Positions 226 through 60,600 of a DNA stretch of 64,000 nucleotides are shown here, piece by piece. Source of the DNA: Schizochytrium sp. TIO01 (lineage: Eukaryota; Sar; Bigyra; Thraustochytrida; Thraustochytriidae); contig SMSO01000037.1 of the NCBI GenBank assembly GCA_004764695.1, positions 1,224,247 through 1,288,246 of the forward strand, given 5' to 3'. Position numbers and translations under genes: made by a program. The notes under the pieces were generated by a model that was not told the origin of the DNA, ran no database searches, and was given only the letters and a program-made list of their open reading frames with translations. The stretch's first letter is position 1, and every line of letters begins with the position of its first letter.

Positions 226-2733
226 ATGCCAAGACTGGGTTTCAGAGGCAGCAGGGCCGAGGAAGAGAGCGACAAGGAAGATAAACTCGCAGTCGCGCGT
301 CGCCGCAAGCGCTATGAAAGAGAGTTTGGAACACGCTTTCGTCGAGATGGTAATGACGATGAAGACGAAGATTATGAAGAAAAAGATATGGAAGAGGAGA
401 TAGACAATAACAATAGCAATGGGGGAAGAGACAATGATGATAGCGAAGATGAGGAAGACATGCGGGCAATATCCATTACAAAGCGCAAGGCAAACTCAGC
501 ACTTAACCTCAGGCCAGGCAGTTCGCTCGCTGCAAAGGACCTCCGATACTCAACAAAGCCACTAGATTCTCTGTCTGATCGCGAAATGGCCTCTTGGACT
601 GACTCGAACCATCGAAACATTTTACAGGTTTGCATTGCTGCAGATAACGTTGAGGCCGTGCGTATTGTACTTCGTAGGCTTATCCAACAAAAAGTGGAAA
701 GATGTCGCCGTGAGGACGAGAGACAGCTTAGAGCAGCTCGGCGAGAGCTTGCACAAATGCAATTAGGTTCGATGCCAAGCGCCCTTAGCTCATGTGAGGG
801 CCGTGTAAAAGCACGCAAGCACCAAGTGGAAAGTCTAGCACAGATTGCAGAGAATTTCTTTAAAGAGATTGCATGTCAGCCCGACAAAAACGGATGGACT
901 TCATTTCACTATGCAGCACAATCTCGAAGCTCATGTATTTCTGAGCTTTTGGAAGGTCCCCATCTTGCGAGACTTTCTGCTCTGTCTAATCCGAAAACAC
1001 AGGATCAAATGTATACAGAGCGTTCTTTGATGGTCTCAGTAAGAGACTCTACAGGCTGCACACCTCTTCATATAGCCGCTGCGAATGGAAACGCCTCTGC
1101 TATTCGCGCTCTTCTTCGCTGGAATGCAGATTTCAGCATCAAGAACCTAGACAACGATTTGCCAATCGACGTTGCAATAGATCGCGTCACTCGGCGCGCT
1201 TTACAAGCTGGTCTTCGCGCACCTACAACCATGAGCTCGACAGATAGAATTGCGAGAAGTCAAAAATTGTCTGAAGGTACCAAAATTTCCCTCCAAACAC
1301 TATGTGAATGTGGGGAAAACGTGAATGAAAGATTTGGATTGTCTTTACAGGCATCCTTGCACGAGGCAGCCCGAGCAGGTGATCTGCAGGTTGTTAAATT
1401 TCTAGTTGAAGAAAGCAAAGAAGCTGATGTAAATATTGTCGATGCAAATGGCCGCACGCCTTTGCATATGGCAGCACAGGAAAGCTCAGCTGTCCACCGG
1501 ACAATAGCTGATATCCTTTTGCGTAACGGAGCCAAAGTGAACCACGCAAGTCATGCCGGATACACCCCTCTGCATGCTGTGGCCGCAAGCTCCTGTAGCT
1601 CATCTAAAAACAAGCAGCTGATGGTAGCCTTGTTAATCCGAGCGGGAGCAAGGTTGGAAGCAAAAACTGAGAAAGGGCTCAGCCCACTGTTGCTTGCCTC
1701 GAAACATGGCCATGTAGGAGTCGTTTATGAACTTATTCTATCAGGCTGTAAGCTCAATTCGCTTGACGACAAGCTATGGAACGCTTTGCACTTTGCAACT
1801 TTCTACAAACACTTTGAGCTTGTTCATCTACTTGCTTACGCAGATGCAGAGGTTCAAGTACTGCAACACAATCGAAATTCGCATGGCAAACTACCATCAG
1901 ATCTCTGTCGAGATTCTAGATTCCGGGATGCATTAAAGTCTACCTGGGAATACGCAAGTGAAGGCTGCATTGACAAACTGAGAAGCGCACTGCGGGATGA
2001 GAATGGACAGGCCTCATGGATACTCCAGGAAGACCTGTGGAAGAGTATTACTAAGAATATCAATCAGCAGACTCTGCGACACAAATACACTATTCTGCAT
2101 ACAGCAATCTTGGGTGATCAGTTTTCGCACCGTCATATATCTCATTCTCGCGATGGAAAGTCTACAAAAAGTGTTGAGCAAACTGTACGATATATTCTTG
2201 GACTAAAGGGGATTTCTGTTAATGCCTCTGACGTTCAAGGGCGAACGCCCTTAATGCTCGCTGTTATGTTGGGTCGAAGAGAAATTGCAGAAGAGCTAGT
2301 CAAGCGGGGTGCATCATTATCGCATTTGGACCGGGCTGGGAACAATGTGCTTCACTATGCCAACGCCTATCTACAGACAGGTTTCATAGGTCGTCTCATC
2401 TCGGCCTCTGAAATGGAAGAGGATGAGTCTGCGCTTGATATTGAAAACCACCATGGACAACGGCCCTTTGATGTAGCGGGCTTAAAGAAACATATGATAG
2501 TTCCTGGAGTACAAAGTCTTTGCAAAAACAGGACTCCCAAACATGGCCAACGTAGTAGTAGGCTAGCAACCCATGCCGACGACGGCTCGAAATTCCCAAA
2601 GACAGAGGGGCATGGAGCAGAACAGGACGAGGCAGAAGAGAGCAAAGACGAAGAGGCAGAGCGATCATCAGAGTCGATTGCCGAGCGCACTCAGCGAACA
2701 CTTAAAGAAGTAGCACGAGAAATACAAGAGTAA
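226..2733 (+). CDS. Ankyrin-repeat protein, 835 aa
   Basis: Single open exon from an ATG at 226 to TAA. The first ~85 residues are charged, with a strongly acidic stretch. A basic helical segment around residues 150-185 (Q/R/E rich) may form a short coiled coil. Ankyrin repeats are recognisable by their TPLHxAA cores near residues 222 (WTSFHYAA), 276 (TPLHIAA), 377 (SLHEAAR), 407 (TPLHMAA), 444 (TPLHAVAA), 483 (SPLLLAS), 517 (NALHFAT), 670 (TPLMLAV) and 703 (NVLHYAN). A ~150-residue spacer separates the last two from the main array. The C-terminal ~80 residues are E/D/K rich and disordered-looking. Ankyrin arrays bind proteins; no enzyme domain is visible, so partner and location are unknown. 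It converges on the downstream MYG1 gene. Confidence 0.9.
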   Translation: MPRLGFRGSRAEEESDKEDKLAVARRRKRYEREFGTRFRRDGNDDEDEDYEEKDMEEEIDNNNSNGGRDNDDSEDEEDMRAISITKRKANSALNLRPGSSLAAKDLRYSTKPLDSLSDREMASWTDSNHRNILQVCIAADNVEAVRIVLRRLIQQKVERCRREDERQLRAARRELAQMQLGSMPSALSSCEGRVKARKHQVESLAQIAENFFKEIACQPDKNGWTSFHYAAQSRSSCISELLEGPHLARLSALSNPKTQDQMYTERSLMVSVRDSTGCTPLHIAAANGNASAIRALLRWNADFSIKNLDNDLPIDVAIDRVTRRALQAGLRAPTTMSSTDRIARSQKLSEGTKISLQTLCECGENVNERFGLSLQASLHEAARAGDLQVVKFLVEESKEADVNIVDANGRTPLHMAAQESSAVHRTIADILLRNGAKVNHASHAGYTPLHAVAASSCSSSKNKQLMVALLIRAGARLEAKTEKGLSPLLLASKHGHVGVVYELILSGCKLNSLDDKLWNALHFATFYKHFELVHLLAYADAEVQVLQHNRNSHGKLPSDLCRDSRFRDALKSTWEYASEGCIDKLRSALRDENGQASWILQEDLWKSITKNINQQTLRHKYTILHTAILGDQFSHRHISHSRDGKSTKSVEQTVRYILGLKGISVNASDVQGRTPLMLAVMLGRREIAEELVKRGASLSHLDRAGNNVLHYANAYLQTGFIGRLISASEMEEDESALDIENHHGQRPFDVAGLKKHMIVPGVQSLCKNRTPKHGQRSSRLATHADDGSKFPKTEGHGAEQDEAEESKDEEAERSSESIAERTQRTLKEVAREIQE

Positions 2734-3116
2734 AAATTTTAACAGCATCCAGGCCGCAGAAATTTTCTGTTCCCTAATTATATGTTTAATAAGACAGTAA
2801 AAACTGATATTAATATAGAACATCAAATGACCTTAGAGGACGTGGAGTACAACTCTGCACAACTCTCAATTTCGAAATCTTTGACCGCACCGGAAATCAT
2901 GCTAGATAACTTGATTCTGATTCTAGATATATTTTTAATCCTTAAACGGAAAATGGGGTAAAAACAGTCATAGTTTAGTTTAATTTTGTTTGGTTTATTA
3001 GGCAGATTCGATTGATCATAAAGACAGACTAGAGTGTATTGTAGGGTTTGGCAGCTGAGCTTAAAGTAAGCATAATAGGGGGCACAGCGATAGGGCAATG
3101 CGTACGAATTATGTAT
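2734..3116. other. Convergent intergenic region, ankyrin gene / MYG1
   Basis: This AT-rich 383 bp lies between two gene 3' ends and should hold both 3' UTRs. I see no ORF, RNA gene or repeat in it. Confidence 0.6.
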
Positions 3117-4190
3117 TTAGAGAGACTGCTTAGCCATCTCGAGAGCGCCCTCGTAGGTACGGTTGCCACCAATAAATCCGGACGCATGAACAAAGATGCA
3201 TCCCGGGATGCCCCAGAGGTTGCTGAGCTCGTCGTCGCGAACTCCACGGTACTTCTCCGGAAGTGACTGACGGTTTGTGAAGGAGCTCTCCTCAACCGGG
3301 ACGCACTGAACACGCCAAGCGCCGCTAGAGTCCGGGTAGAGCACGTACTTAAGGTCTCCGTCCTTAAGACCATCAACGCCCTCGGTCTCAAGAGCAAAGA
3401 GGTGGCTACGCCAGGGGCAGGATCCGTCGAGCTTGATGATGGCTCCGCTGGCATCAACCTCCTTACGCTCCTTGATAGCCTTGACGACAATTTCGCGAGC
3501 CGGGAGCCAGATGGTAAGAAGACCAACGACATGGTCCACAAACTCCGTGAGGGTCATTCGCACAGCCTTCTTGAACTGCTCCATCTCGCGAGCGGTCTCG
3601 TCCTCAACAGCGGGTGCGTTCCAAGCCGGGTTCAGGGAACCAACGCGAGAGCTGAGGTGCGTGCTCACGTTGTAGTTCTTCTCACCAGAGTAGGGGTCGA
3701 TTCCGTTGTCGATACCGTCAATGTGCTCAACAAAGTTCTTGTACACGCGCTTGTAAAGCACCTCGAGCACGTCCTCGTCGACCTGGGTCTGGGACTCCTT
3801 GGCGATCCACTGAATAATCTCCTTGCCAAAGTACTTGTACACGAGACCTGCACTGGAGAGCTTGGTCTTGAAGTCCTCGCTAAAAAAGACATCTTGGAAC
3901 TCACGCTGGTGGTGGTCGAATCTCAAAGCCTCGGGGTCGAACTTGCCACCAACGTCCACGACGATCTCGCACTGCTCGAGCGCGGCGCCGTCGCGGGTGC
4001 GCACGATGGGACGGCCCTGGAAGCGGTCCACAAGCTGGAGCATACCGCAGGCAAAAGCCTCATCACAGTGGAAGTGGCCGTTGTGCGTGCCCACGCACTT
4101 GGACAGGCCATCGGTGATCTTGGTGGGAGCGCAGATCTCAACAGCGTCCACCAATTTCTCGGCGGCAGCGCGAGCGGCGAAGGAGCTCAT
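3117..4190 (-). CDS. MYG1: MYG1-family exonuclease (UPF0160), 357 aa
   Basis: MYG1 proteins are DHH-like 3'-5' RNA exonucleases of mitochondria and nucleus/nucleolus. The family signature is clear: THNGHFHCDEAFACGML near the N-terminus (metal-binding HxGxFHxDE), then VDVGGKFDPEALRFDHHQREF with the DHH triad. The C-terminal half holds the family's CPWRSHLFALE segment and ends with a FVHASGFIGG-type motif. The start chosen is the ATG at 4190 (MSSFAARAAAEK), giving a length close to the ~375 aa usual for the family. The frame stays open upstream to an ATG at 4382; the extra 64 residues include an Arg-rich, acid-free stretch (RFRLGKTFRTGLSRLPAARS), a good mitochondrial presequence, so the longer form may be real. 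It is divergent from the glycosyltransferase gene. Confidence 0.94.
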   Translation of the reverse strand: MSSFAARAAAEKLVDAVEICAPTKITDGLSKCVGTHNGHFHCDEAFACGMLQLVDRFQGRPIVRTRDGAALEQCEIVVDVGGKFDPEALRFDHHQREFQDVFFSEDFKTKLSSAGLVYKYFGKEIIQWIAKESQTQVDEDVLEVLYKRVYKNFVEHIDGIDNGIDPYSGEKNYNVSTHLSSRVGSLNPAWNAPAVEDETAREMEQFKKAVRMTLTEFVDHVVGLLTIWLPAREIVVKAIKERKEVDASGAIIKLDGSCPWRSHLFALETEGVDGLKDGDLKYVLYPDSSGAWRVQCVPVEESSFTNRQSLPEKYRGVRDDELSNLWGIPGCIFVHASGFIGGNRTYEGALEMAKQSL

Positions 4191-4874
4191 TGCGGCAGAT
4201 CGGAGAAACGACGGAAGCAGCGGCAGCAGCGGGGATCGAGCCGCGGGAAGGCGGGAGAGACCGGTGCGGAACGTCTTGCCGAGGCGAAAGCGAAGCAGGA
4301 TGTGCGAGTTAGCACTGAGTAGTTGCGAGTTTGGTGCCAACCACCAGAGCACCAAACTCTGCGTATTATTACATGTTTCCATGGAATGAGAATATGCGTA
4401 TTAATACACAAAGATCACACGAGAAAGAGATTGAACATTTCAATAAAAAATCGTTTTTGACAGTCGAGCATTGCTAATGTTGTATGTAATTGGACCTGGA
4501 TGTTGGCTCAAAAAGCTCGCTTCTATTTCATGGAAAGATACTCAAGTTGCTGCTCAAGTTCTAAACTTCAGACTGCCCACTGCGCAGCTTCAGATAGTTT
4601 CACGTCAACTGAGTTTATTTGCTGTGGTGATCTTAGTTCCTTTATTTGGTTTCCTTTCATTTGTAACCTTTAAAAAGACTGCAATATTTACAACAATAAC
4701 GATAATAAGATAGGATTTATAATTATTATTATTTAGTCTATTTCATTCATTTCATTCATTTAAAATTAAAAATGGTCATTGAAAGTTGAATAAAATTTCA
4801 TTGACAACGAAGCAATTCTGCAATGACGTGGCCGTGGTTGCGGAGCCAGAGCAGCGGAGGTTGATTCGCTCGGT
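4191..4874. promoter_or_regulatory. Divergent intergenic region, MYG1 / GT60
   Basis: Shared upstream region of two divergent genes. The MYG1-proximal ~190 bp may instead code for a targeting extension (ATG at 4382). The centre (about 4680-4790) is AT-rich with ATT/CATT simple repeats. No TATA box can be assigned with confidence. Confidence 0.5.
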
Positions 4875-7800
4875 ATGGCTGCGCTGCCCGGTAGCGGAAT
4901 TAAGGGCAAGGGCCGTGCGCCTGGTGGTTCACAGCCGTGGTGGGCGAACCAGGGCCATAACCGCGCCATGGCTGAGCGCGCAGCGGCTGTTGCCAAGCGC
5001 CGCAAGAAATGGTCTATCGCGGGCCTTGCTACAGGTGCCATGCTCGTGTGGATGGTTATGTACATCGTTGGTGCATCCTTGTAAGTTAGATCGCATATCC
5101 TACCGATGGTCTCAGCGAAAATTGAGGTTATGCAGAATGCGTATCGATTATTAAAATAGCGTCGACCTCGGTACTGAAGAGAAAAGTCGATATGGCGGTT
5201 GGATAGCTTCCATGGTTCACGGCCAAGATCTGGCTTCAAAATTGCGTTTAGCAAGTAGGTTGCATCCGTGATGATCTCCTACACATTCGAACCTGTGGTT
5301 ATTCGCCTCTTGACTTTCTTTTCGAAGAAGAGATTGTAGGAGGTGCGAGGCATGGATACATATGTTTTTAATAAAATAGCTGACGAAATACCTTGTGTTG
5401 AATGCGATCTCTTGATGTGCTGAAACGAATATAATCGTATCTGTGGATGGAAACACTACTTCGCGTGAATTCACGCGGGAAACAATTATTTGCATAGCTT
5501 CATGCTCGGAAGTGGTGATGATGCTAGCTCTGTGCAGGCCCTGGGGACGCACCGGCACCTTGCTGGTAACTGTCAATTCTATGGACCTGCAGATGGTTTC
5601 CTGCAAGGCTGCGTGCAGGATTGCAAAGGATTTGCAAGATTAGCACCTGCTCTCCACGCATGTGCTGCCGACATTTCATGTGGCGGAGTGACCTATGTGC
5701 CTTGGGAGAACGAGAACGCACGCTTTGAATTGCGTGGTATTGTAGAAGGACAAGGCCCCCAAGCCACTCCGGATGGGCAAATCTCATTTGTGGTTGAGAT
5801 GTGTCAAGATTCACGGAAAGGATGGAATCCTGACAGCATGTGGCCAAAGAGTTCGCATACTCCACCATCGCTTTCTAATCAAGCAAAACAACGCAGAAAA
5901 CAGGGTTCTCTACGCCACCAGGCTCACCAAGCAGCACGCGAGGAGCGTCATTCCCAGGAAGAGGCTACGCGCGCAGCCGCGGCTGCTGAAGCTTCAGGCA
6001 GTGCTAATGGTGATCATTCAACCTCAGCTCTGGCGGCGCTAGAAGCTCGCTTGGAGGAAGAGTCTGGCCACCACGCCAGCAAGGGCGCTGCAAGCGCTTC
6101 CAGTGCGGCCAGTGCTAGTAATGCAGACGAGAATACAGTATCTGGTGCTAAATCTTCAATGGGCGAAGCACTTGCTCCTTCTGAAAGTAAAGAAACTACT
6201 TTTGACAATTCCGGCTTTCTTTCTTTACACGGAGACCACAAGGTCCCAACAGTGACTACAGAGCCTAAGATTGAAAAGCATATCAAGACTGTGGATGAAA
6301 TGGAGGATGACGATGATGACGACAACGACGATAATGATGGAAACTCCAATAGTGGAGGTGTAAGTGGTCCGTCAAATGAGGTTCAAAGTGTCGAGGGTGC
6401 CTTTGAGAATGCTGATGATGACGATGAAGAGGCAGATTTGGCTGAGGCAGAAGCGTTTGATGCTGCCTTGGAGCTGGATAAGAGAATCGCTGAAGAAGAG
6501 AAAGAGAAATCCTCCTCGCAAACTTCAGGGGATATAGATCCTTTTTCTGAACCAATGGGTGATAGTGTGGGACCAGAAGTTATTGCGGAACGTGATGATG
6601 ACCCCGATTTCGAGGTAAAGCTTTGGACACCCCCTGGACTCGATCTCGAAGATGAGGAAGCGGTGGATGCTGTTGGCAGCTTCGAAAATGGGCAACCTAC
6701 AATCTTTATCGGAATTGCATCGTACCGTGATTTTATGTGCTCTGATACTTTAGAAAGAGCTTTGAGCTTTGCCAAATACCCCGAGAGACTTCGCTTTGGT
6801 GTTGTCGAGCAGAATGCGCCTATTGACAAGCACTGCTTTCATGTGGAGCGTCCTTGCTCAGAAGACCCTCAGCAGCTTTTATGTAAGTACCGAGCTAACA
6901 TACGCATCCACAAAGTGAGCGCGTTGCAGGCACGCGGACCCACATACGGAAGATATCGTGCCGACAGCTTGTATCGGGGCGAATACTATGCTCTACAAAT
7001 TGACGCGCACATGTACTTTGTAAAAGACTGGGACGAAGATTTGGTCTCTCAATTTCAAAGCACCAAAAACGATTATGCAGTACTTTCCACTTATCCTAGT
7101 GATGCCAACGACAAGACCATCACACAAGAGACAGGTACATCATTAGTCTCATCTACACCAATTATTTGCAGTTCTAGTTTTGTTGGTACACGTCAAATGA
7201 CCAAGCATAACTCTGCACATGAGTTTTATCCTCCAAAAGATATTGTCACTCCCATCCTTCAAATTTGGTGGGCTGCGGGTATTTCTTTTTCTCGAGGTCA
7301 TCGAATTCTTCGTGTGCCGTATGACTGCTGTTTGCCAATGATTTTTGATGGCGAGGAGACGTCAATGGCATACCGTGCATGGACACATGGTTACGATTTC
7401 TATACTTTCCACCATAGCGCCGTGTTTCATCCTTACAGTCGCGTAAACAAGCCTCCTTTATATTGGGAGAACGAAAAGACCGACCGGAGCGCCCGTGAAG
7501 AGGACTTGGCAAAGTCTCAGCGGCGGCTCCGTAAAATTTATGGCCTGGACCCTCAGGGTGACTACTTTGAACAGGACATAGAACGTTTTGGCCTTGGTAA
7601 AAAGCGGCCACTACTTAGATTCTGGAAGCTCTTCGGTATTGACTATCGCAAGAACAAGATTAGGGATCAATGTTTCGCTTCAACAACATGCGCCCTGCAT
7701 CGCTATCTTGTTCCGCATCTGAGGGCTGACGGCAAGGGAATTGACTATACCCAGGTAAGGGATGAGGTTAATTGGGCCAAGGTAGCCAAAAAGGGTCAAA

Positions 7801-49520: not shown

Positions 49521-52500
49521 TCAAAATAACGACGAGCTGTTTTTAGCTTTCTGGAATAAAGAAGTGCCAGTCAGCTTTGAACTGGGTGGCAGTTTCTCTT
49601 TGACGCTTCGAATCTCATCCTTTAGTTTGTCAATCTGTCTCAGATAATCGTTCGCAAGTTCTACCCCACCTCGAAGACTCGCCACGTCGACTTGAAGAGC
49701 GAATAGGTCGTTTGTTTGCTTTTCAATGCGCATGCTTAAGGTTTTTTGATCTTGAGCGAGACTGTTGCAATGTACTTCAATTTTCTTCTGTAAATCAGTA
49801 CCTGCCTTTTCCATCTTCTTTTCAATAAGGGAGGTTGTGGTTGCCTGAATTTGTGTAATTGTTTTGCCCTGCTTTTCAACATTCTCTACTCTAGCGTTCA
49901 AGCCTTTCAGGTTGGTCATCTTTCTTTCAATGGCCTTTAATCTGCTTACTACATCTGCATCAGTTTGGTCTGAGCGTTCAATTAACAAAGATGCAGGTGA
50001 AGAGTTAGGAAATGGTGCCTTCTGCTCCTCGAGAAATTTGACTTTGGCACAGAGAGTCGCAAGAGCCGCATCTTGTTTCACAGCATTAAGACTCTTAGCT
50101 TGTAGCTCAGCAATGATTTTATTCTGTTTTTGAAGCTGCTCTTCGAGTCTTCGTACTGCCGCATCTTGAGGCGGTGCAGCTTCGGGTGCCTCTTGAGGAA
50201 CAGGTACCTCCGAAGGAATTGTATCATTCTGCCCCTCAACTGGATTCATCATCATCTTCCTTTTTATCTCATTTACTCGCCGCTGTTGTGTGAGAGGAAG
50301 CTTGTCAAATACAGCGCTATCAGTCTCTTCAACAAACGCGATAAGGAATGGGTCCATGCGCACTTTATCGGTAGCTCGTAAGTAGCAATCAGCAAGCTTC
50401 CATTCAACAGCTTCATAAATAAGACTTGAGTTTGTACAGCGAATATCATGTCTTGTTAAAGACGATGGATGGCAACCTAACTTCTTCACCAAACACATTA
50501 AGGAGTTCAGCTGAGCTGGCGCGAGAGACCAGTCAAAGTCCTCATCGTCAATGAGAGTAACTAATGCACTCGTAGGCCCACCGTGCTCTAACGTTCTTGC
50601 TGCAAAGAAATTGACCCATTCTGCTTCGCTAGAGTACGCTTGACTCGAGCTATCCTTGTATTGGGAATCTGATTCAGAATCTTCGCTATGATCTGCTCCA
50701 CTCTCTTCATATCTTAGTTCAAGATCTCGGAGAGCTTCGACAGCTCTATATGTCAAGTTGATAGACTCAAGTAGTTGTTTACGTCTTGCTTGAACCTGGG
50801 CATCTTCTACAAGCAGCAAATAGAAATCTTCATCCTTCATACCATCCATTTCATTGCAAAACTCCTCAATAATAGACGCATTGCCCCACATTTGGTAAAT
50901 AACCTCTGAAATCGCAGCTTGTTTCGCCATTGTCCACATGCCTTCGTTATCGATTTTATCAGAATCGCCCTCCAAAATGATCTGAAATCTAACCTTTAGA
51001 AGTGCTGCTAGGTTTGCAGAGCTAGTTGCTAGACGCTGTTCAAAAGATTTGTCCAGTAAAGTACTAATCCTGGAGGCGATGGCTGGAAAGCGTCGAAGCT
51101 TTATGGGGAGATCCTCATCAAGCACCTCGTTCAGGACCAGGGTCTTGATAGAAGACCAAACCGTTGAAACAAGGGTTGGTACGATATCAGACTCGACTCT
51201 TGCAATGAGGTCACGAGAGAGCTGAACTCGTCTGAGAAATGTAGCAAAACCGGGTACCTCAGGCATAACTCGGTTCCACTGCGCAAAACAGATGCATAAC
51301 CACTCGTTTAGAGAGAACTCGAGTAAGTCATCGCATCTAGCTGATAACGCAGAAGCAATGTCTGCCTTTCTTAGGATAGTTGGATCTGTACCTAATTTCC
51401 ATACTTCTGTAAACAGGCGTTGCAGTTCATCCTTGCAGCGTTCGCGCTCCGCATAGACCCACTTCTCGCGCATGTACTTCTGGATCATCCCATTCAAACC
51501 TACCAGAACACCTCGCATGCCATGTTTAGTCGGGTCAAACTCGACACCCTCTGTCTCCAGGATATCTCTCAGAACTGCATCTTCGTTTTGGAACGACAAT
51601 CGAAGCTTATCAAGATTATCGTCTACTGATGTAATTCGATTAACCACAGGTATAACTGCATGGATATCTGCATCCCGAGGCATCACCATTGGGGACAGTT
51701 CGAGTCTTTCTTTCAGATCTAGGCTGCCACCGGCAACATCTACCTTTGATAAGACAATCACAGCAGGCTTTCCTGATTCTTTTAAAAGTCCCCAGATACT
51801 GCTGTTACGAAGGCTTTCATTACGAGCAGAAATGACTGCAATGACAAGAGCATGAGTTTTGCTAAGCATCTTGCGAGTGAGCTCAACAGTTCGCTGCCGA
51901 GCCTCCTCTGGAGCAGCAACAACTCCAGGAAGATCAATCAAATCTATTGTGGGTACGTTTGGTGCACGAATCTCGACTTGGATCTCGCGATCGGCGATAA
52001 CATTCGTTCCATCGTCATCGGGATGCTCAGCGAGAATGAACTCGCGAACGAGCTCGGCTACCTGCGACGAGAAGGGCTCACTGTTCTGATCACCAGTAGT
52101 GCATATCTGTGGTTCCATTTCTCTGACGATCTCACCACTCTCTGCGTCTTTGACGCGAAGTTGAACTTGGTTCTGGTGCAAGTGGCATCGCAGCATCAGG
52201 CGAATCGGCATTCGCGTGCAAAACATCTTGTCTCGTGGAAAAATATCACGCATTGCAATGCGTTCAAGAGTGGAGGACTTTCCTTGGTTTTCTTCACCGC
52301 AAACGATAATTTCGGGTAATTCAAGCTCAAAACTTCCTCGGACTCGAAGTGCCGCAGCAATAAGTCTACCATAAGGAGCGTCGGAGGCGCAAAGCATCTG
52401 GGAAATTCCGCCATGTTGTTCATTTGGGTCATTGAAGGCTCCTGACAGAGATCCCTCGAGAGAGTTCCATTCTTTCATAGTATGAAGGGCAGCTTTGTAG

Positions 52501-52742
52501 CCTTCCCGCCTACTCGCGGTAGCCAGCGTATCAAAAGCTTCTCGAATACTCTTCAGTTTATCTGTGTCTCGAGCGAACATAGGCACCTTCAATGCAGCGG
52601 CATAGGCAGCATTGACGACGTCATCAGTGATGTTTTCTTCGTCAGTACTAAGGTTTAGGAGGCCAAATGCTGACAGGTCAACCGAAGTCCAATCATCGAG
52701 GCTTCCACTCCGATCTCTATCCTCAATTTCGATTTCTGACAT
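49521..52742 (-). CDS. Dynamin-family GTPase with J-like N-terminus, 1073 aa
   Basis: The GTPase core is intact: G1 GEENQGKSS (149-157), switch-I Thr176 in CTRMP, G3 DLPGV (270-274), G4 SKVD (332-335). EIIVCGEENQGKSS, IDLIDLPGVV and AVIVLSKVDVAGG follow the dynamin pattern. A long helical stalk (~400-760) follows, then a Gln/Lys-rich coiled coil (~850-1060, KQNKIIAELQAKSL, IEKQTNDLFALQ). No PH domain is seen. Residues ~25-87 (FGLLNLS...VVNAAYAAALKV...IREAFDTLATASRREGYKA) resemble a J-domain in helix pattern, but the HPD loop is replaced by VPMFAR, so DnaK stimulation is unlikely. Membrane remodelling or host-defence Mx-like roles are possible. The gene has a broken copy immediately upstream (54.4-57.7 kb). 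Confidence 0.88.
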   Translation of the reverse strand: MSEIEIEDRDRSGSLDDWTSVDLSAFGLLNLSTDEENITDDVVNAAYAAALKVPMFARDTDKLKSIREAFDTLATASRREGYKAALHTMKEWNSLEGSLSGAFNDPNEQHGGISQMLCASDAPYGRLIAAALRVRGSFELELPEIIVCGEENQGKSSTLERIAMRDIFPRDKMFCTRMPIRLMLRCHLHQNQVQLRVKDAESGEIVREMEPQICTTGDQNSEPFSSQVAELVREFILAEHPDDDGTNVIADREIQVEIRAPNVPTIDLIDLPGVVAAPEEARQRTVELTRKMLSKTHALVIAVISARNESLRNSSIWGLLKESGKPAVIVLSKVDVAGGSLDLKERLELSPMVMPRDADIHAVIPVVNRITSVDDNLDKLRLSFQNEDAVLRDILETEGVEFDPTKHGMRGVLVGLNGMIQKYMREKWVYAERERCKDELQRLFTEVWKLGTDPTILRKADIASALSARCDDLLEFSLNEWLCICFAQWNRVMPEVPGFATFLRRVQLSRDLIARVESDIVPTLVSTVWSSIKTLVLNEVLDEDLPIKLRRFPAIASRISTLLDKSFEQRLATSSANLAALLKVRFQIILEGDSDKIDNEGMWTMAKQAAISEVIYQMWGNASIIEEFCNEMDGMKDEDFYLLLVEDAQVQARRKQLLESINLTYRAVEALRDLELRYEESGADHSEDSESDSQYKDSSSQAYSSEAEWVNFFAARTLEHGGPTSALVTLIDDEDFDWSLAPAQLNSLMCLVKKLGCHPSSLTRHDIRCTNSSLIYEAVEWKLADCYLRATDKVRMDPFLIAFVEETDSAVFDKLPLTQQRRVNEIKRKMMMNPVEGQNDTIPSEVPVPQEAPEAAPPQDAAVRRLEEQLQKQNKIIAELQAKSLNAVKQDAALATLCAKVKFLEEQKAPFPNSSPASLLIERSDQTDADVVSRLKAIERKMTNLKGLNARVENVEKQGKTITQIQATTTSLIEKKMEKAGTDLQKKIEVHCNSLAQDQKTLSMRIEKQTNDLFALQVDVASLRGGVELANDYLRQIDKLKDEIRSVKEKLPPSSKLTGTSLFQKAKNSSSLF

Positions 52743-54394
52743 TCCCCTTGCTCTGTTGTAAAGGTAGACTCTAGGTTATCTGGATTGGTATTTGGTTTTT
52801 ACATTAAGTCCAATTCAGTCGCCTTGCATTGGGTATTTACGAACTTGCAGATCTCCTTTTTAATGATCGAGGTTTTCCTTCTAGTTCAAGTATCATATAT
52901 TCTAGCTTGACCTATCCTTTACTTCTCAATCCCCCAATGTAATTTATATTTCTAAAAAGCACTTTAGTTAGAATCCGAAAAATCCGCTCTTGAGTTAAAA
53001 ACAAACAAGCAAATAAACAAACAAGGTAGAAGGAGTGGGTACTAGGACGTATTATGTACCTAACTACCCACAGTGTATAGGGGTAAGTTTTGGAGCTGCC
53101 ATGCCGGTGCACATATGTGTGTCCTTAATATTTGCAGTTTGTAGAGCAGTAGTCCAGCTGATCTTTTACTACTACCTAGTCGGCCGTGATTAGCATTCGA
53201 GCCAGGCTGCAAAAGAATTTTCGAAGACCTATCTACATGCGTACCACTCGATTAAAGATGCTAAACACCACCTGCTACAGGCTAAAGCCGCTGAGTTCTA
53301 TAGGAGCTTATAAAAGAGCACCGCGTTGATGAGTAAATAGCAGGCTTGACATATGATTAAATTTTAATTAACCAGCACGATATTCGTAGGCCATGCTGTT
53401 TTTCGCTGTTAAAGTCTTTCGTTTGAAAAAGAAGTAGAACTTAGTTTTTATGGCTCTGTGAATTCGACGTACCAATTGGCTAAATGGGAGAATATGCAGT
53501 CAGGCAGGTAGGTAAGTACCTACCTACTACATATCCCTTCGTTGGGCTTTTGACAATTTTATCGTTCAACTAACTTAGCCTTTGGAGTAACTCAAGCAGC
53601 TACTACCTAGAGGTACGAGTGCACGTGCATAGTTGTTTTATATTATATTATATTTTAATTTTATTTTTTTTAATTGAGGAGAAAGTGCCGCAAATGAGTT
53701 CTTGGCCCATTTTCCAAAAGCGAACAGACATGGCAGACACTGAACTCGTACCTTCAATTTGTAATAGTTTGAGCAGTAGTGCACACTATCCTCGAAAGTT
53801 TGATCTTTAATTTAAAAAAAATACATGCACTTTGCATCATTATATCTTCAAAAATCAATTCAGAGTGATGATTCTCTTCCATGAAAACATTGTCGTTGCA
53901 CGTGACGGCGACTTTCTAAACTGAACATGATTTTCCAAAAATAATGATAATAATAAATACGAGAAGAGAAGAGAAAAGAGCGCTTAGAAATCAAAAGCAG
54001 ACACCGATGGGCATCTTCTCTCACTTCGAAGCAGATACGCGGTATTCATGATGGCCAGCACATTATCGAATTGGTTATCACTAGGCCAAAAATGAAAAGA
54101 TGCTCTAAAAAAGTAAACTAAAAATGTTCATGTTCGTCAATAGTTGTGGCGAGCCAGCGTGCTAGTCGCTTCATCATACAATGCTGTTTGTGTGAGAAAT
54201 CACATAAGTTATGTATGTTTTATTTGCCCTTTTTAATTAAAAAATAAATAAAAATATTAATATATATGTATATAAATACTAATACGAACAGCTTCGACAA
54301 ACTCTCCTAAACATAGTTTCAATAGAAAGGCCAAGGCCTAAGGAACAAATAATGTATAATCTTTATATGGCGTTTCAATTCGACTATAGCCTAT
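52743..54394. other. Upstream region of the dynamin-like gene (parent arm of a duplication)
   Basis: 1.65 kb upstream of the GTPase gene. It contains an 18-bp inverted repeat, GGTAGGTA-AG-TACCTACC (53507-53524), an AAACAAACAAGC-type repeat (52998-53026) and AT-rich runs. Parts resemble 57.7-58.6 kb: for example 53745-53800 (CGTACCTTCAAT...GCACACTATC) resembles 58498-58550. I read this as the parent's promoter side of a segmental duplication. Confidence 0.55.
53507..53524. repeat. 18-bp palindrome GGTAGGTA-AG-TACCTACC
   Basis: Perfect 8-bp arms around a 2-nt centre in non-coding DNA upstream of the dynamin-like gene. It is the best example of the TAGGTAC/TACCTA motif family scattered through intergenic DNA in this window. 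Confidence 0.8.
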
Positions 54395-54920
54395 GCAGAC
54401 AAAGGGCCTTTCTTCAAACTATGAAATAGAGGAGTGTCAGTAAGCTTTGGACCGGGTGGCAGTTTCTCTTTGCTAATTTTTATTCTCGTCCATTAGTTTG
54501 TCGATATGTACCAGATGGTCGTTCGCAAGTTCGACCCACCTTGGAGACGCGCCGCGCCAAGTTAGAGAACTGAAAATCGCTATCTTACCTTCTAGGCGCG
54601 TGCTTAATTCACTTTAATCCTGAGCGAAAGTACTCCAATGTTTTATATATTTATTTGTCGATTCATTTATTTATGTATTTTTTCTTTTTTTTAATGAGTA
54701 CTGTCTTTCCACCATCTTCTCAAAAAGGCAATTTGATTGGCCTTGCATAATTAATTGTTTCGCCTTGCTTTTCAGCATGCCCTTTTCAAGTCTAAACATT
54801 TTCCAGCTTAGTTATTTTCCCCGCGACGACCTTTAATTTGCTGCAGGTGAAGAGTCACGAAATGATGTGTTATGTTCCTCAAGAAATCTGACTTTGGTAC
54901 AGAGAATCACAACAGCCACA
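54395..54920 (-). pseudogene. Dynamin-like pseudogene, left arm (C-terminal coding part)
   Basis: Aligns by eye with 49550-50090, same orientation as the parent gene. Examples are GGTGGCAGTTTCTCTTTG, TTAGTTTGTCGATATG and TGACTTTGGTACAGAGAATC. It covers roughly parent residues 885-1073 (coiled coil). Divergence is high, about one base in four, with frameshifts and a T-rich insertion near 54640-54690. No open frame survives. Confidence 0.85.
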
Positions 54921-55707
54921 TGCCGCTGCATTGATGTTCGCTCGTAACAAAGATAAATAGAGAAGTGCCCAAGAAGATTTAGGTACGCTAGCTCATGCGA
55001 GTAGGTGGGAAGGCTGCAAAGATGCTCTTTCTGCCATGCAAGAATGGAACTCACTCGATCAGGAGCCTTCAAATGAGCACCATGGCGGAATTTCTCAGAT
55101 GCTTTGCGCCTCCGACGCTCCTTATGGTAAACTTATTGCTGCTGCACTTCGAGTCCGAGGAAGTTTTGAGCTTGAGTTACCCGAAATTATCGTTTGTGGT
55201 GAAGAGACCCGCGGAAAGTCCTCCACTCTGGAACGCCTTGCAATGCGTGGTATTTTTTTTCAGATTATTTTGGAGGGCGATTCCGATAAAATCGATAACG
55301 AAGGCATGTGGACAATGGCGAAACAAGCTGTGGTTTCAGAGGTTATCTACTAATTGTGGGGCAATGCATCTATTGTTGAGGAGTTTTGCAATGAAATGGA
55401 TGGTATGGAGGATGAAGATTTCTATTTGCTGCTTGTAGAAGATGTTCAGGTTAAAGCAAGACGTAAACAACTACTTGAGTCTATCAACTTGACGTACAGA
55501 GCTGTTAAAGCTCTCCGAGATCTTGAACTAAGACTTGAAGAAAATGTAGCAGACCATAACGAAGATTTTGAATCAGACTCCCAATACGAGGATAGCTCTA
55601 GCGAAAGAGAATGGTTCAATTTCTTTGCAGCAAGAACGTTAGAGCACGGTGGGCCTACGAGTGCATTAGTTACTCTCATTGACGATGAGGACTTTGATTG
55701 GTCTTGG
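54921..55707 (+). pseudogene. Dynamin-like pseudogene, inverted core, part 1
   Basis: Copy of parent residues ~48-167 joined directly to ~585-736, read on the plus strand, so inverted relative to the arms. The J-like end (ASRWEGCKDALSAMQEWNSL) and the P-loop region GEETRGKSSTLERLAM are kept. The join at the run of T near 55250-55260 skips ~1.25 kb of parent that codes for G3, G4 and most of the stalk. There are in-frame stops at 54960 and 55351. Identity to the parent is clearly higher here (above 90% in 55070-55700) than in the arms. Two frames (55036-55353, 55354-55740) stay open, but the protein would lack a GTPase fold. Confidence 0.88.
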
Positions 55708-57060
55708 GAGTCCACGACAAGGGCCCCGGAACTGGACTAATTGTAAGGTTCTCATCCACTTTCTTCCGACATGATCGCAACCGCAACCAGAACAACAATA
55801 TAAAGATAGTATTTATGCAGCGCGAGGAATCCTTGGTTGTAAATGCAGAACTGTGGCTTCTTCTTCCTTTTCCTCTTTCTCTTCTACATGAACACTCACA
55901 ACTTGATGTAAGGGATTCGCCCTTGTCCTCTTGTCGTCGTTCGAAGTATGGTCCATATTGTGGGTATGGCGCTTTGCCTCGAGTTTCGCCTTGACGCGTC
56001 TTGCAAACTTTTGACCGAAACTCCGCTTCGCCACGTCCTCTATTTGACCCAGTAAAAACAGTGCAGCATCTTCACGATCATTTCTCACATCTTCATCGTA
56101 GAAAGCAACCCAACGAATGATGAGGTCTGCATCCAGATTGCATCGGAAGATGCTCTCTGTATCAAATATGCCATGTGCTACGGTCGCCATCTCTGCCAGC
56201 GAGCACAGCGCGGTCATGATGTAGCCGACGACTTTGTAAGCACCCTCGGCCAGCATGATGATGGTCACTATCGCCAACAGCACACCACTAAAGAGGAACA
56301 CGGATCCCAGACCAGGAGGGGGGTCGTCGCTAGAGCGATAAGCAGGAACGTAAAAAAAAATGGTCAGGAAGGCCATTCCCATGAGGAAAAAGATGACGGC
56401 AAATATCTCCCCGACCAGTGCTCCGACATTCGTCTGATTCCAATTCACTGAAGAGAGACCTACAAATGCATGGAGGACACTTTGCTTCAGGCGGTTGACC
56501 AAACGCATTCGAGGATCACGGGAAGCAAGTCTGTCAAAGTAAAAAAAAGCCAAAATGATCTCGAAGGAAAGGAAACAGATGCCGATGTCAAACAAAAACA
56601 ATTCAAGAGTTTCGGAAGACTCGGAGGTGTTTTTAAGAAGTACTGCAATAAATACATACGTCGTGAACTCACTTACAGTGGTCGTGACAGGAATTCGTCT
56701 ATAAAAAAAGGAGGACGCGTAAATAATGCAAGGAAGAAAAAACCAAAGGTAGTCTAGCCGCTCAGTTCCTAGTGCTGCCGTGACAGTGAGGCCGATCATG
56801 CATATGTTTCTCGTCCAAAAAATGATCCTCGCACCTTTTTCATCGTTAAAGGTCGGGATTGTCCCCCATTCACTTGCATACAGGATATCGCTCTTTAAAC
56901 CCTGCAGCACCTCCTCGTTGTCACACATCCTTTACCTCCACCCTACCAGTTAGGGATTTGGTGCGCTGCACTGCGCGGCACGTTCTGCCGCCCGATCCTT
57001 CACCCGAGGAACCCCTTGGTGAAAATGTGGAGGTGAGAGCCTTTTGTAATGGGCCTGTCT
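55708..57060. other. 1.35-kb insertion within the dynamin pseudogene
   Basis: Homology to the parent stops after TTGGTCT at ~55707 and resumes at TCTCTCGCC, ~57061, although these bases are adjacent in the parent (near 50535). The inserted segment carries one complete gene (55813-56928, minus) and by eye is richer in G+C than its flanks. I find no clear terminal inverted repeats and at most a TCT target duplication, so a DNA-transposon origin is not supported; capture during break repair is an alternative. Confidence 0.7.
55813..56928 (-). CDS. Unrecognised polytopic membrane protein, 371 aa
   Basis: ATG at 56928 (MCDNEEVLQGLKSD) to a stop at 55813. At least six or seven hydrophobic helices are visible (IICMIGLTVTAAL-like at ~35-50, LWFFLPCIIYASSFF, FTTYVFIAVLL, LFLFDIGICFLSFEIILAFF, VGEIFAVIFFLMGMAFLTIFF, VFLFSGVLLAIVTIIML, VVGYIMTALCSLA). 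They are followed by a cytosolic-looking tail with D/N, basic and E/K-rich stretches (residues ~275-371). I do not recognise the family. It lies entirely inside the insertion and is the only intact frame there. Its codons and base composition look different from the surrounding AT-rich DNA, but this is by eye only. Confidence 0.72.
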   Translation of the reverse strand: MCDNEEVLQGLKSDILYASEWGTIPTFNDEKGARIIFWTRNICMIGLTVTAALGTERLDYLWFFLPCIIYASSFFYRRIPVTTTVSEFTTYVFIAVLLKNTSESSETLELFLFDIGICFLSFEIILAFFYFDRLASRDPRMRLVNRLKQSVLHAFVGLSSVNWNQTNVGALVGEIFAVIFFLMGMAFLTIFFYVPAYRSSDDPPPGLGSVFLFSGVLLAIVTIIMLAEGAYKVVGYIMTALCSLAEMATVAHGIFDTESIFRCNLDADLIIRWVAFYDEDVRNDREDAALFLLGQIEDVAKRSFGQKFARRVKAKLEAKRHTHNMDHTSNDDKRTRANPLHQVVSVHVEEKEEKEEEATVLHLQPRIPRAA

Positions 57061-57545
57061 AATTCTCTCTCGCCCGCACAGCTGAACTCCTTTATGGGTT
57101 TGGTGAAGAAATTGGGTTGCTATCCATTGTCTTTAACAAATGGACATGATATTAGCTGTGCAAACTTAAGCCTTACTTGCGAAGCTGTTGAATGGAAGCT
57201 TGCTGATTGTTACCTACGAGCTACTGATATAGTATTGTGCATGGACCCATTTCTTATCGCGTTGCTGAACAGATTGATGGCACTCTATTTGACAAGCTTC
57301 CTCTCACACAACAAAAGACAGGTGAATGAAATAAAAAGGAAGATGATGATGAATCCAGTTGAGGGGCAGAACAATACAATTTCTTCGTCTTCTTCTTCTT
57401 CTTTTTAAGATACATGTTCCCCTAGAGGCACTCAGAGTTACACTGTCTTTAGATGCGAAAGTACCAAGACTTGAAGAGCAGCTTCAGAAACAGAGTAAAA
57501 CAATTGCTGAGCTACAAAGTAAGCTTTTTATAATTTTGTGAGACA
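57061..57545 (+). pseudogene. Dynamin-like pseudogene, inverted core, part 2
   Basis: Continues the inverted core after the insertion, matching parent residues ~738-883: SPAQLNSFMGLVKKLGCYP, EAVEWKLADCYLRATD, MDPFLI, VNEIKRKMMMNPVEGQN and EEQLQKQSKTIAELQSK. Small frameshifts and a TCTTCTTCTTC expansion replace the parent EVPVPQEAPEAAPP segment. Similarity is intermediate (about 85%). Confidence 0.85.
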
Positions 57546-57695
57546 ATAACGCAGCATTGACAACAGCATCAGGGATGTTTTCTTCGCCGGTACTAAGGTT
57601 AAAGAATTCAAATACGGACACTTCACGACGAGTTTAATCGCCTAAATTTTCACTCCCATTTCGACTCTTTATTTTGTTTTCTGAAATTGTTCTTT
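57546..57695 (-). pseudogene. Dynamin-like pseudogene, right arm (N-terminal coding part)
   Basis: Matches parent 52595-52742 (residues 1-47) in the parent's orientation: GCAGCATTGAC, GATGTTTTCTTCGCCGGTACTAAGGTTAAAG, AATCGCCTAAATTTTCACTCC. The breakpoint with the inverted core lies in GCAGCATTGAC (~57553), and the reciprocal one at ~54921 (ATGCCGCTGCATTG). Together with the left arm it frames the inversion. Confidence 0.8.
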
Positions 57696-60600
57696 CATGG
57701 TCCTAACCTTAGATGCACTTATAATGTCCTGAGTCGCCAAATACGTATATGAGTTTCTGATGAAAATACTATATCAGATAAACGCCCCCTTTACAAAGCA
57801 AAACGATGAACACACCAAAAAAGATAAAAATATCAGTAGTAGTGGGGAATAAATGGTGCCTCATGTTTTTACAGATATAATCTTTCAAACTGCTAAATGT
57901 TATGATATATGGAAATACTATAATGGATAAAAGTTTGTATCTTAGTAAGCGTGATTTTGCTTTATTCAGAACTGCCTAGGCGTAATCAGCACTCGTGGCT
58001 TCTTCCTAAGTCCTACTAGGTAGGTACTCGTTTAGAGTCTAAAGTTTATTTTACAAAATAGGCAAAGACACACTAAAGTCAAATTTAGTACCCCAGAAGT
58101 CTACGGGCTAGCATGCCATCGACTAAGGGTGACATAAAAGTACTTAGTCCTATCTCTTTGCTGCGCAAGTCTTTTATTTAAGGAATTGACACATTATATC
58201 TATGGTTTTGTGAACCCCCAAAAATAGAATAATTTGGAGAATACAGAATCTGTAATTAGACAAGTACTATCTACCGTTTCTCTCAGAATAAAGTTGACAG
58301 TTTGAGTCTTGTCTGGACCTTTTTACACATTCTGTCATTTAGCTACACGTCTAGAGTTTTGACCCCTGAAGTGGCGAAGTAACTAGGTACTAGAGCGGTG
58401 CCTGCTACATGCAATTGTTGCTCAATTTAGAGAATCAAGTGCTAACAAAAATCATGGCCTCCTTTTTAAAACAAAGAGTCGCGGTGAAGACTCGTTAACG
58501 TACCTTCAATCCACTAGCTTAAATAGTATCGCACACTATCTCATTCGAACTTGCATGCTCAAAGACGAAGTGTAAGCTGGTACCTGCTTTCCTTTTTTGT
58601 TCATTAGCATTTCAAGCTAGTGAAGTTAGAATACTAAAACTAGCTTTTTTTTTTGCTTTTTTAAATTACTTTTTTAAATCTAACTTTTTAACTTTTTTCT
58701 TTTTTCTTTTTTCTTTTTTCTTTTTCTTTTTTTTTTTTTTCTATAAAGTTTTTCTCTAGCAAGATAATAGCTTAACTAATACACCATACACGTGTGTATA
58801 CATGCTGCTCATATGACCCAAGCACTCAAAAACGTATATGCGTGGACACCTCCTCTTACTTCCGAACATATTCGCAGGTGTCGAAAAAGTTAGTGAATCA
58901 GTTTACGACTTGGCAAGAAATTAATACGCTCTCTTGACTAATAGAAAAAGAAAAAAGTGCCTGTAAAAGCCATCGCAATTCTATACTGAGCTGTTCATAA
59001 ACTCCATTAAATATATATAGTTTAACTTGAGCTTTGCCCAAGCAAGCGAATTTTACGAATAGCCTGTAGCCGATAAGAGTGGGCGAATTCTACTATACAC
59101 TTATTATTAATATAGAGAAACGTTCAAGGTTACGCTTTTTTTCAAAATTAAATATTGTCTCCGGAAGCTAACTTGCACGCATTGACTGTCTAGTAGTTTC
59201 CTTCAAAGTTGCGCAGTTTGTAGCATTATACTTTCGTGTTACTAAATGAAGGTTCCCGTATGCAACACTATAAAGCCATTGTTTACCACTTCTGAATGAT
59301 GGGACGGACTTTGGGTAAGCACAACTAAAGTAGAATCGAAGAAGTAAACAACTTGCAGATTATTCTGCTAGATTAAACAATCATGCTTATTAGCTGATCT
59401 TGGCGTTGCATTCCTTTGGCAAGATATTTAAGAAGTTATGAAAAGTCTTGATCTATGCTATCTTCTCCCCTGGTCCAAACATCGATGGTTGCCTCACTAT
59501 ATACACGGGACTGACTTTATCTGCTTGCGGGCTTAATATTTTGCAACTGTGTTGATACCCATTGAACTCCCGAATGAACCTGCTAATACAGTACCAGATT
59601 AGCTAAGAATGATACCTACATAAAGTTTGAAGGCTGTCCTCATTCTGCCGGAGGCTTTCATATCAAAACAGTCCTCAAATAGCTCAAGCTTTTAGATCAA
59701 GTAAACATTTGATTCGTCCTTCGCAGAAAAGAGGTCAAATGCAACTTTGAATCATTTTAAGTTTTCGTTTTGAGTGAGTTTAGCAAGCCAAGCATGTTCA
59801 ACTTAAACTTAATATTTTCAGTCTCAAAACAAATGCGAGCGGCACTTGGCGCGTAATGCAAGCCATAAGTCCTGAGGAACAGCTTCGGATCGTGCTTGAA
59901 CGCACAATTTGCTTAGCAACGATTTGCTGTACGTATTGAGCGAAATGAATTGAGTATGCGAGAATGCTCTTACCACAAGAAATTCCGTTGATGTTACTAC
60001 TAGTAATCAGACGCTGTCGGCCAAACGACTCAAGTACTACATCAATCTTGCCTTTTAGTAAATCAAGTTAGTCTGTGGGTGGGAGATCGATTCCCTCATC
60101 AACCATTTTCCATATACAATTTGCAGATGGAGTTGCAGCAAACTTATGGACCTTGCTGCATACGATATCGCAACATGAGTGGACATCTTGCTGGACTCTT
60201 GGACTCCTGATGTGTTTTGTAAAGCTAGAAGCACAACTGGCCTACCAGGGACTCTTACAACTGACCTTGGGGGAGGGGGTATATTGTAAGTGCCCGCAAA
60301 AGATCTCGTGCCGGAACAATGAATGCATCGATTGGCATCCGAACAAAGGCCACAATCAGTGATGAAATGTATCGAATGAGATGACGCATTGCGTACGAAC
60401 TGATTACCATGCTTGAGCGAATGAAGCAATCTTTGAGGACGAATGAGGAGCCGATGTATCCAGGTCTGTTACGAAACTACAAGAAATCTTATCACAAAAA
60501 CAATTAGCTTACTGCCTAGACGCTACTATCTATTGTACTAGAGGTCGGTATCATTTCTCAACTTTCTCAAGTTCGCCTTCTGCTCTTTCTGCATCACCCG

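Follow-up and report, generated by a model that had tools for sequence, protein, structure and literature searches.

The window analyzed here is a 64-kb stretch of DNA (45.7% GC, 0 N) from a 64-Mb genome held in 37 contigs. It contains an intact dynamin-like gene on the minus strand (49521-52742), hereafter the parent, and a partner copy that adjoins it at 54422-57688. The features of the locus are collected in Table 1. The parent is a 3222-bp reading frame without an intron. Its Dynamin_N domain, at residues 145-333, is matched with E 2e-18 and 67.3 bits against a Pfam cut-off of 27, and its nearest PDB relatives are the GTPase domains of dynamin-1-like protein (E 1e-14) and Vps1 (E 1e-13). 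In these respects the protein is a member of the dynamin superfamily of the DRP/Vps1 type, from which it differs by a poorly conserved N-terminal stretch of 120 residues and a C-terminal part suggestive of a coiled coil. The latter resemblance is by eye, and the Pfam search returned no match above cut-off for this part. A J-domain at the N-terminus was considered and rejected; the parent has no DnaJ match, and that of its paralogue is sub-threshold (E 0.035). This paralogue, a long frame of 1068 aa on contig C30, is 48% identical to the parent over residues 104-824. The two proteins are colinear, and their frames can be aligned end to end, best at residues 104-824, with the first 120 residues of the parent barely conserved (32-38%). 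The paralogue served as the outgroup for polarizing changes between parent and copy. Because the parent is intact and colinear with the paralogue, the neighboring copy is the derived one.

Table 1. Features of the dynamin-like locus, in window coordinates.
Feature	Position	Strand	Description
Parent gene	49521-52742	-	Intact dynamin-like large GTPase, 1073 aa
C-terminal arm of copy	54422-54921	-	Direct; parent 49552-50071; decayed
Inversion junction 1	54920-54921		Parent 50071 joined to 52603; BLAST blocks overlap by 2 bp (AT)
Core part 3	54920-55257	+	Inverted; parent 52603-52239, aa about 47-168
Deletion junction	55257-55258		Parent 50988-52238 missing; joined in a T run
Core part 2	55258-55704	+	Inverted; parent 50987-50526; best conserved block
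Insert	55705-57063		About 1359 bp; no clear terminal inverted repeats
Orphan ORF in insert	55813-56928	-	371 aa; candidate membrane protein with four hydrophobic stretches
Core part 1	57064-57546	+	Inverted; parent 50528-50073
Inversion junction 2	57547-57550		Parent 50073 joined to 52606; 4-base gap
N-terminal arm of copy	57551-57688	-	Direct; parent 52606-52743; decayed
Two upstream patches	58157-58540		58157-58274 matches 53402-53527; 58452-58540 matches 53700-53790

The original prediction held that a dynamin-like gene had been tandemly duplicated, that its copy lay at 54.4-57.7 kb, and that the core of the copy had been inverted. Alignment of 49-59.5 kb against the whole window by blastn confirms this arrangement in both orientations, with two direct arms, an inverted core, and breakpoints at the places named. 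Along the window, the copy consists of a direct C-terminal arm, three inverted core blocks, and a direct N-terminal arm, and the E-values of its diagonals with the parent range from 3e-5, for one piece of the C-terminal arm, to 0. The C-terminal arm aligns in three direct pieces: 54422-54641 with parent 49552-49773 (73%, E 6e-26), 54680-54842 with 49781-49946 (69%, E 3e-5), and 54842-54921 with 49992-50071 (82.5%, E 1e-16). The N-terminal arm aligns at 73% identity (E 4e-15). For the N-terminal arm and two of the three C-terminal pieces, 0/100 Markov shuffles reach the observed score. The core blocks are matched more strongly by blastn, at 81% (E 9e-100) for part 3, 90% (E 0) for part 2, and 80% (E 4e-123) for part 1; over aligned bases their identities are 87, 93, and 85%, respectively, and each carries one stop in the parental frame. 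The longest perfect run in part 2 is 82 bp, and part 1 carries indels that are not divisible by three. The inverted core had been predicted to span parent residues ~48-883, which is approximately right; the corrected range is about 47-890. Outside the window's own pieces, a search of the genome gave just one DNA match to 49521-54400, of 48 bp.

Near-inverted repeats are a known source of assembly flips, and the parent and its copy are near-inverted repeats, which raises the question of whether the inversion is a joining artifact. Such a misassembly is very unlikely. Between 7 and 25% of aligned bases differ, depending on the segment, 52 of 59 60-bp windows fall below 95% identity, and the window is free of N. 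Moreover, the junctions lack long homology, and an assembly flip cannot create the insert and the deletion.

The positions of the junctions define the kind of inversion. In parental coordinates, the left arm ends at 50071, the core covers 50073-52603, and the right arm starts at 52606. The same two parental positions thus recur at both junctions with almost no gain or loss of bases, the two arms and the three core blocks abutting to within 0-4 bases, and this near absence of loss or doubling is the mark of a balanced inversion. The AT at junction 1 occurs both in the left parental sequence and in the right one when reversed. The four bases at junction 2 are unassignable because the copy has drifted. 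Breakpoints predicted at ~54921 and ~57550 agree with blastn block ends at about 54921 and at 57547-57550. The accompanying proposal that they lie in GCAGCAT-like matches was not supported, as no homology usable in the inversion orientation was seen beyond the 2-bp AT at a single junction. Such a sequence does occur near the breakpoints, but the two occurrences of the shared CAGCATT have the same orientation, one inside its breakpoint and one outside, an arrangement unusable for inversion, and its mediation was rejected.

Within the core, the deletion removes 1251 bp, or exactly 417 codons (parent residues 169-585), and is in frame, as expected 1 in 3 times by chance. The copy has therefore lost most of the GTPase domain (residues 145-333) together with a long stretch beyond it, which sets it apart from the dynamin superfamily. 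A 1.25-kb deletion of the GTPase center had been anticipated; the size is correct, but the loss extends well past that domain.

The predicted insertion was also found, as about 1359 bp between 55704 and 57064, where the flanking core blocks overlap by 3 bp (TCT). No second copy of the insert was found genome-wide by DNA or protein search. The frame within it is unlikely to be a product of chance, because 1000 Markov shuffles of the insert produced no ORF longer than 218 aa, as compared to the 371 aa observed. The window contains 13 other ATG ORFs that reach 350 aa, and 12 of them exceed the orphan in codon score, which was trained on those same 13 ORFs and so favors them. Searches of Pfam, NCBIfam, PHROGs, and PDB sequences gave no match to the orphan, and single-protein searches of viral_contigs and genome_contigs, which are sensitive to close relatives only, returned none. 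An alignment-free structure prediction of the ORF has a mean pLDDT of 43. A viral or prokaryotic origin of the ORF was rejected, with relatives confirmed in none of viral_contigs, genome_contigs, PHROGs, and NCBIfam. A DNA transposon was likewise rejected as the source of the insert, given the lack of a second copy, of a Pfam transposase match, and of clear terminal repeats; among the best 25 of 35 inverted pairs, none bridges both insert ends. The ends do share a gapped subterminal match of 22 bases, reached by 17/500 shuffles, which leaves a small door open for a transposon.

To account for the blastn diagonals, a duplication, a balanced inversion, a deletion, and an insertion are all needed to derive the copy. 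The original prediction had condensed these into a single-gene history, and its tandem duplication, internal inversion, 1.25-kb deletion, and insertion are each required; the role it gave to GCAGCAT is not supported. It had further placed duplicated DNA, in patches, upstream of the gene. Two weak patches are present, with 62 and 67% identity and 34 bits each, on one diagonal with an offset of about 4750. Under relaxed scoring, two hits of at least 30 bits on one diagonal occur in 0/400 shuffles and two of at least 25 bits in 1/400, by a pair criterion chosen after the hits were seen; a single hit of at least 34 bits occurs in 3/400. With the stricter +2/-3 scheme, 8/100 shuffles reach the best upstream score, which is not significant, and 12/100 reach that of the inverted control. 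The shared diagonal suggests that upstream DNA was duplicated along with the gene, which would be expected of an unprocessed copy but not of a retrocopy. No downstream duplication was found (89/100 shuffles reach the score), and no Rfam family was detected at 47-61 kb at gathering scores.

The copy bears the lesions of a pseudogene. The seven aligned copy segments together contain eight stops in the parent's frame, and many indels are not divisible by three. When amino acid changes were polarized with the paralogue, 42 fell to the copy and 9 to the parent over all segments (p 3e-6), a tally that includes the stop codons of the copy. Restricted to the core, the counts are 25 and 5 (p 3e-4); polarized sites in the C-terminal arm are weak because the paralogue aligns there at just 5-19% identity. 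For all segments together, pS is 0.21 and pN is 0.13, giving a Jukes-Cantor-corrected dN/dS of 0.55, close to the value of 0.5 predicted if one lineage evolves freely while the other stays under constraint. The stops, the non-triplet indels, and the excess of changes identify the copy as a pseudogene. It is homologous to most of its intact neighbor's length (1251 bp of 3222 are missing), carries disabling lesions, and changes faster at conserved sites. From its sequence, it is an apparently dead and probably unprocessed tandem pseudogene that would make no dynamin, a task apparently left to the parent. Like other members of that class, it sits beside an intact parent, has arms on the same strand, carries stops, frameshifts, a deletion, and an insertion, and probably shares duplicated upstream DNA; it differs by its cleanly inverted core. 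In plants, one study reports that tandem and proximal duplicates are in excess among pseudogenes (PMC7935947).

These data are very probably best explained by a head-to-tail duplicate that underwent a balanced inversion of its core, a deletion, and a capture of DNA, and became a dead, unprocessed pseudogene. From the observed anatomy, the decay of the copy, and the intact frame of the parent, we infer both a repair pathway and an absence of function. Head-to-tail duplication of the dynamin-like gene, probably taking upstream DNA along, would have come first. Before, between, or after the rearrangements that followed, the duplicate would have lost its function. Two double-strand breaks, at parent-equivalent positions of about 50072 and 52605, would have released a 2.5-kb core that was rejoined in reverse, likely by end-joining at the 2-bp AT overlap. 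A stretch of 1251 bp would have been lost at the T-run microhomology, and a 1.36-kb piece with the orphan ORF would have been captured at the 3-bp overlap; no order relative to the inversion, or to one another, is implied for either.

The same junctions bear on a single complex event, in which template switching (MMBIR/FoSTeS) built the duplicate with its core already inverted. The MMBIR model (PMC2621351) involves 2-5 bp of microhomology and accounts for complex duplications that include deletions and inverted duplications. The junction overlaps of about 2-4 bp lie within that range, and the copy resembles such products in combining duplication, inversion, and deletion. It differs from them in its age, with 7-25% divergence from the parent, and in an inversion that is balanced almost to the base, with a few bases of uncertainty. 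Arms and core share two parental positions almost without loss, an outcome that comes free with cut-and-flip but not with switching. Template switching is therefore unlikely, and stepwise rearrangement of a tandem duplicate is preferred.

Divergence between parent and copy is uneven. Identity in 60-bp windows ranges from 65 to 98%, peaks in the middle of the core, and drops on both sides before the inversion breakpoints are reached. The segments are heterogeneous overall (p 7e-9) and within the core (p 6e-4), but not significantly so within the arms (p 0.58). An evenly neutral copy would diverge uniformly, unlike the observed profile. A portion of the copy may thus have been subject to some constraint or to gene conversion. 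At paralogue-conserved sites, 3/48 are changed in core part 2, as compared to 12/63 and 10/38 in the other core parts (p 0.04). Protein constraint is a poor, partial answer because core part 2 is just 27-33% conserved between paralogues, and this poor conservation favors conversion. Conversion from the parent that renewed the central portion of the inverted core (parent 50529-50987 and 52239-52470) is a possibility that we hold only tentatively, and it would supplement rather than replace the rearranged-duplicate history. Consistent with it, divergence is 7% in the mid-core block and 21-25% at the two gene ends (limits chosen post hoc), both the core as a whole (p 0.015) and core part 2 (p 0.011) have fewer NG86 synonymous differences than the arms, and the longest perfect run falls in core part 2 (p 0.047). 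However, synonymous sites do not differ between core part 2 and the remaining core (p 0.30), and fourfold sites, with low power, contain no significant segment (25/176 differ; permutation p 0.40). In addition, the tract ends are not sharp, and the block extends across the deletion junction, a boundary likely to be erased by any conversion postdating the deletion.

The well-kept inverted core could instead serve as a regulatory pseudogene whose antisense or hairpin RNA targets the messenger of the parent. Sequence identity would permit this: 206 inverted-core positions start 21-mers that also occur in the parent, and 11 inverted, gap-free perfect runs of 21 nt or more, the longest of 82 nt, are found in the core and none in the arms. 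The conserved block, however, is also expected from conversion or constraint. Exon-wise searches of the organism's own genome gave 0 matches to RNase III (Dicer; PF00636) and Piwi (Argonaute; PF02171), which speaks against siRNA use but is no proof of absence, because the searches were exon-wise and the controls prokaryotic (8/14 detected for RNase III and 1/14 for Piwi). We consider an RNA-based role very unlikely. A broader proposal, that the flipped copy was kept either for antisense transcription against the parent or as the birthplace of a novel orphan gene for a membrane protein, is also quite doubtful. In the latter case, the decayed copy would serve the 371-aa gene as a promoter and terminator region; were the copy kept at all, the well-kept block near the insert would reflect selection or ongoing conversion from the parent.

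The copy is thus a clear yet ordinary rearranged tandem pseudogene that is well preserved in structure. The locus by itself opens no long-standing question; it documents, in compact and readable form, the decay of a tandem duplicate, with a balanced inversion, a microhomology deletion, and a capture of unique DNA inside one gene. In the genome, a single 2172-aa frame carries ten ACP-type domains, in keeping with a thraustochytrid. Tandem ACPs mark PUFA synthases.

No relatives of the orphan ORF carried by the insert in the dynamin-like pseudogene were found in Pfam, NCBIfam, PHROGs or PDB sequences, nor any close ones in the viral and genome contig libraries, and a search of the 64-Mb source assembly for a second copy found none. 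The full-length dynamin-like paralogue elsewhere in that assembly has a C-terminal part in which numerous degenerate repeats resembling NPGPQV occur together with an acidic run; its N-terminus gives a sub-threshold match to DnaJ (E 0.035).

Features discussed here
Feature	Length	Location	Strand	Remark
Orphan ORF	371 aa	window 55813-56928	-	candidate membrane protein; inside pseudogene
Dynamin-like gene		L021 (paralogue locus) 2080-5286, contig C30	-	full-length paralogue
High-GC3 ORF	421 aa	window 3117-4382	-	

Exon-wise searches of the same genome afforded no matches to RNase III (PF00636) or Piwi (PF02171), a hint that the genome may lack canonical RNAi.

Ten consecutive ACP (PP-binding) domains lie in one 2172-aa frame on contig C4 (G000 C4 611495-614707); ACP domains in a row are a trait of thraustochytrid PUFA synthases. 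Within the window, the high-GC3 ORF has a negative codon score and a GC3 of 0.72, far above the 0.37-0.51 of the other long ORFs.
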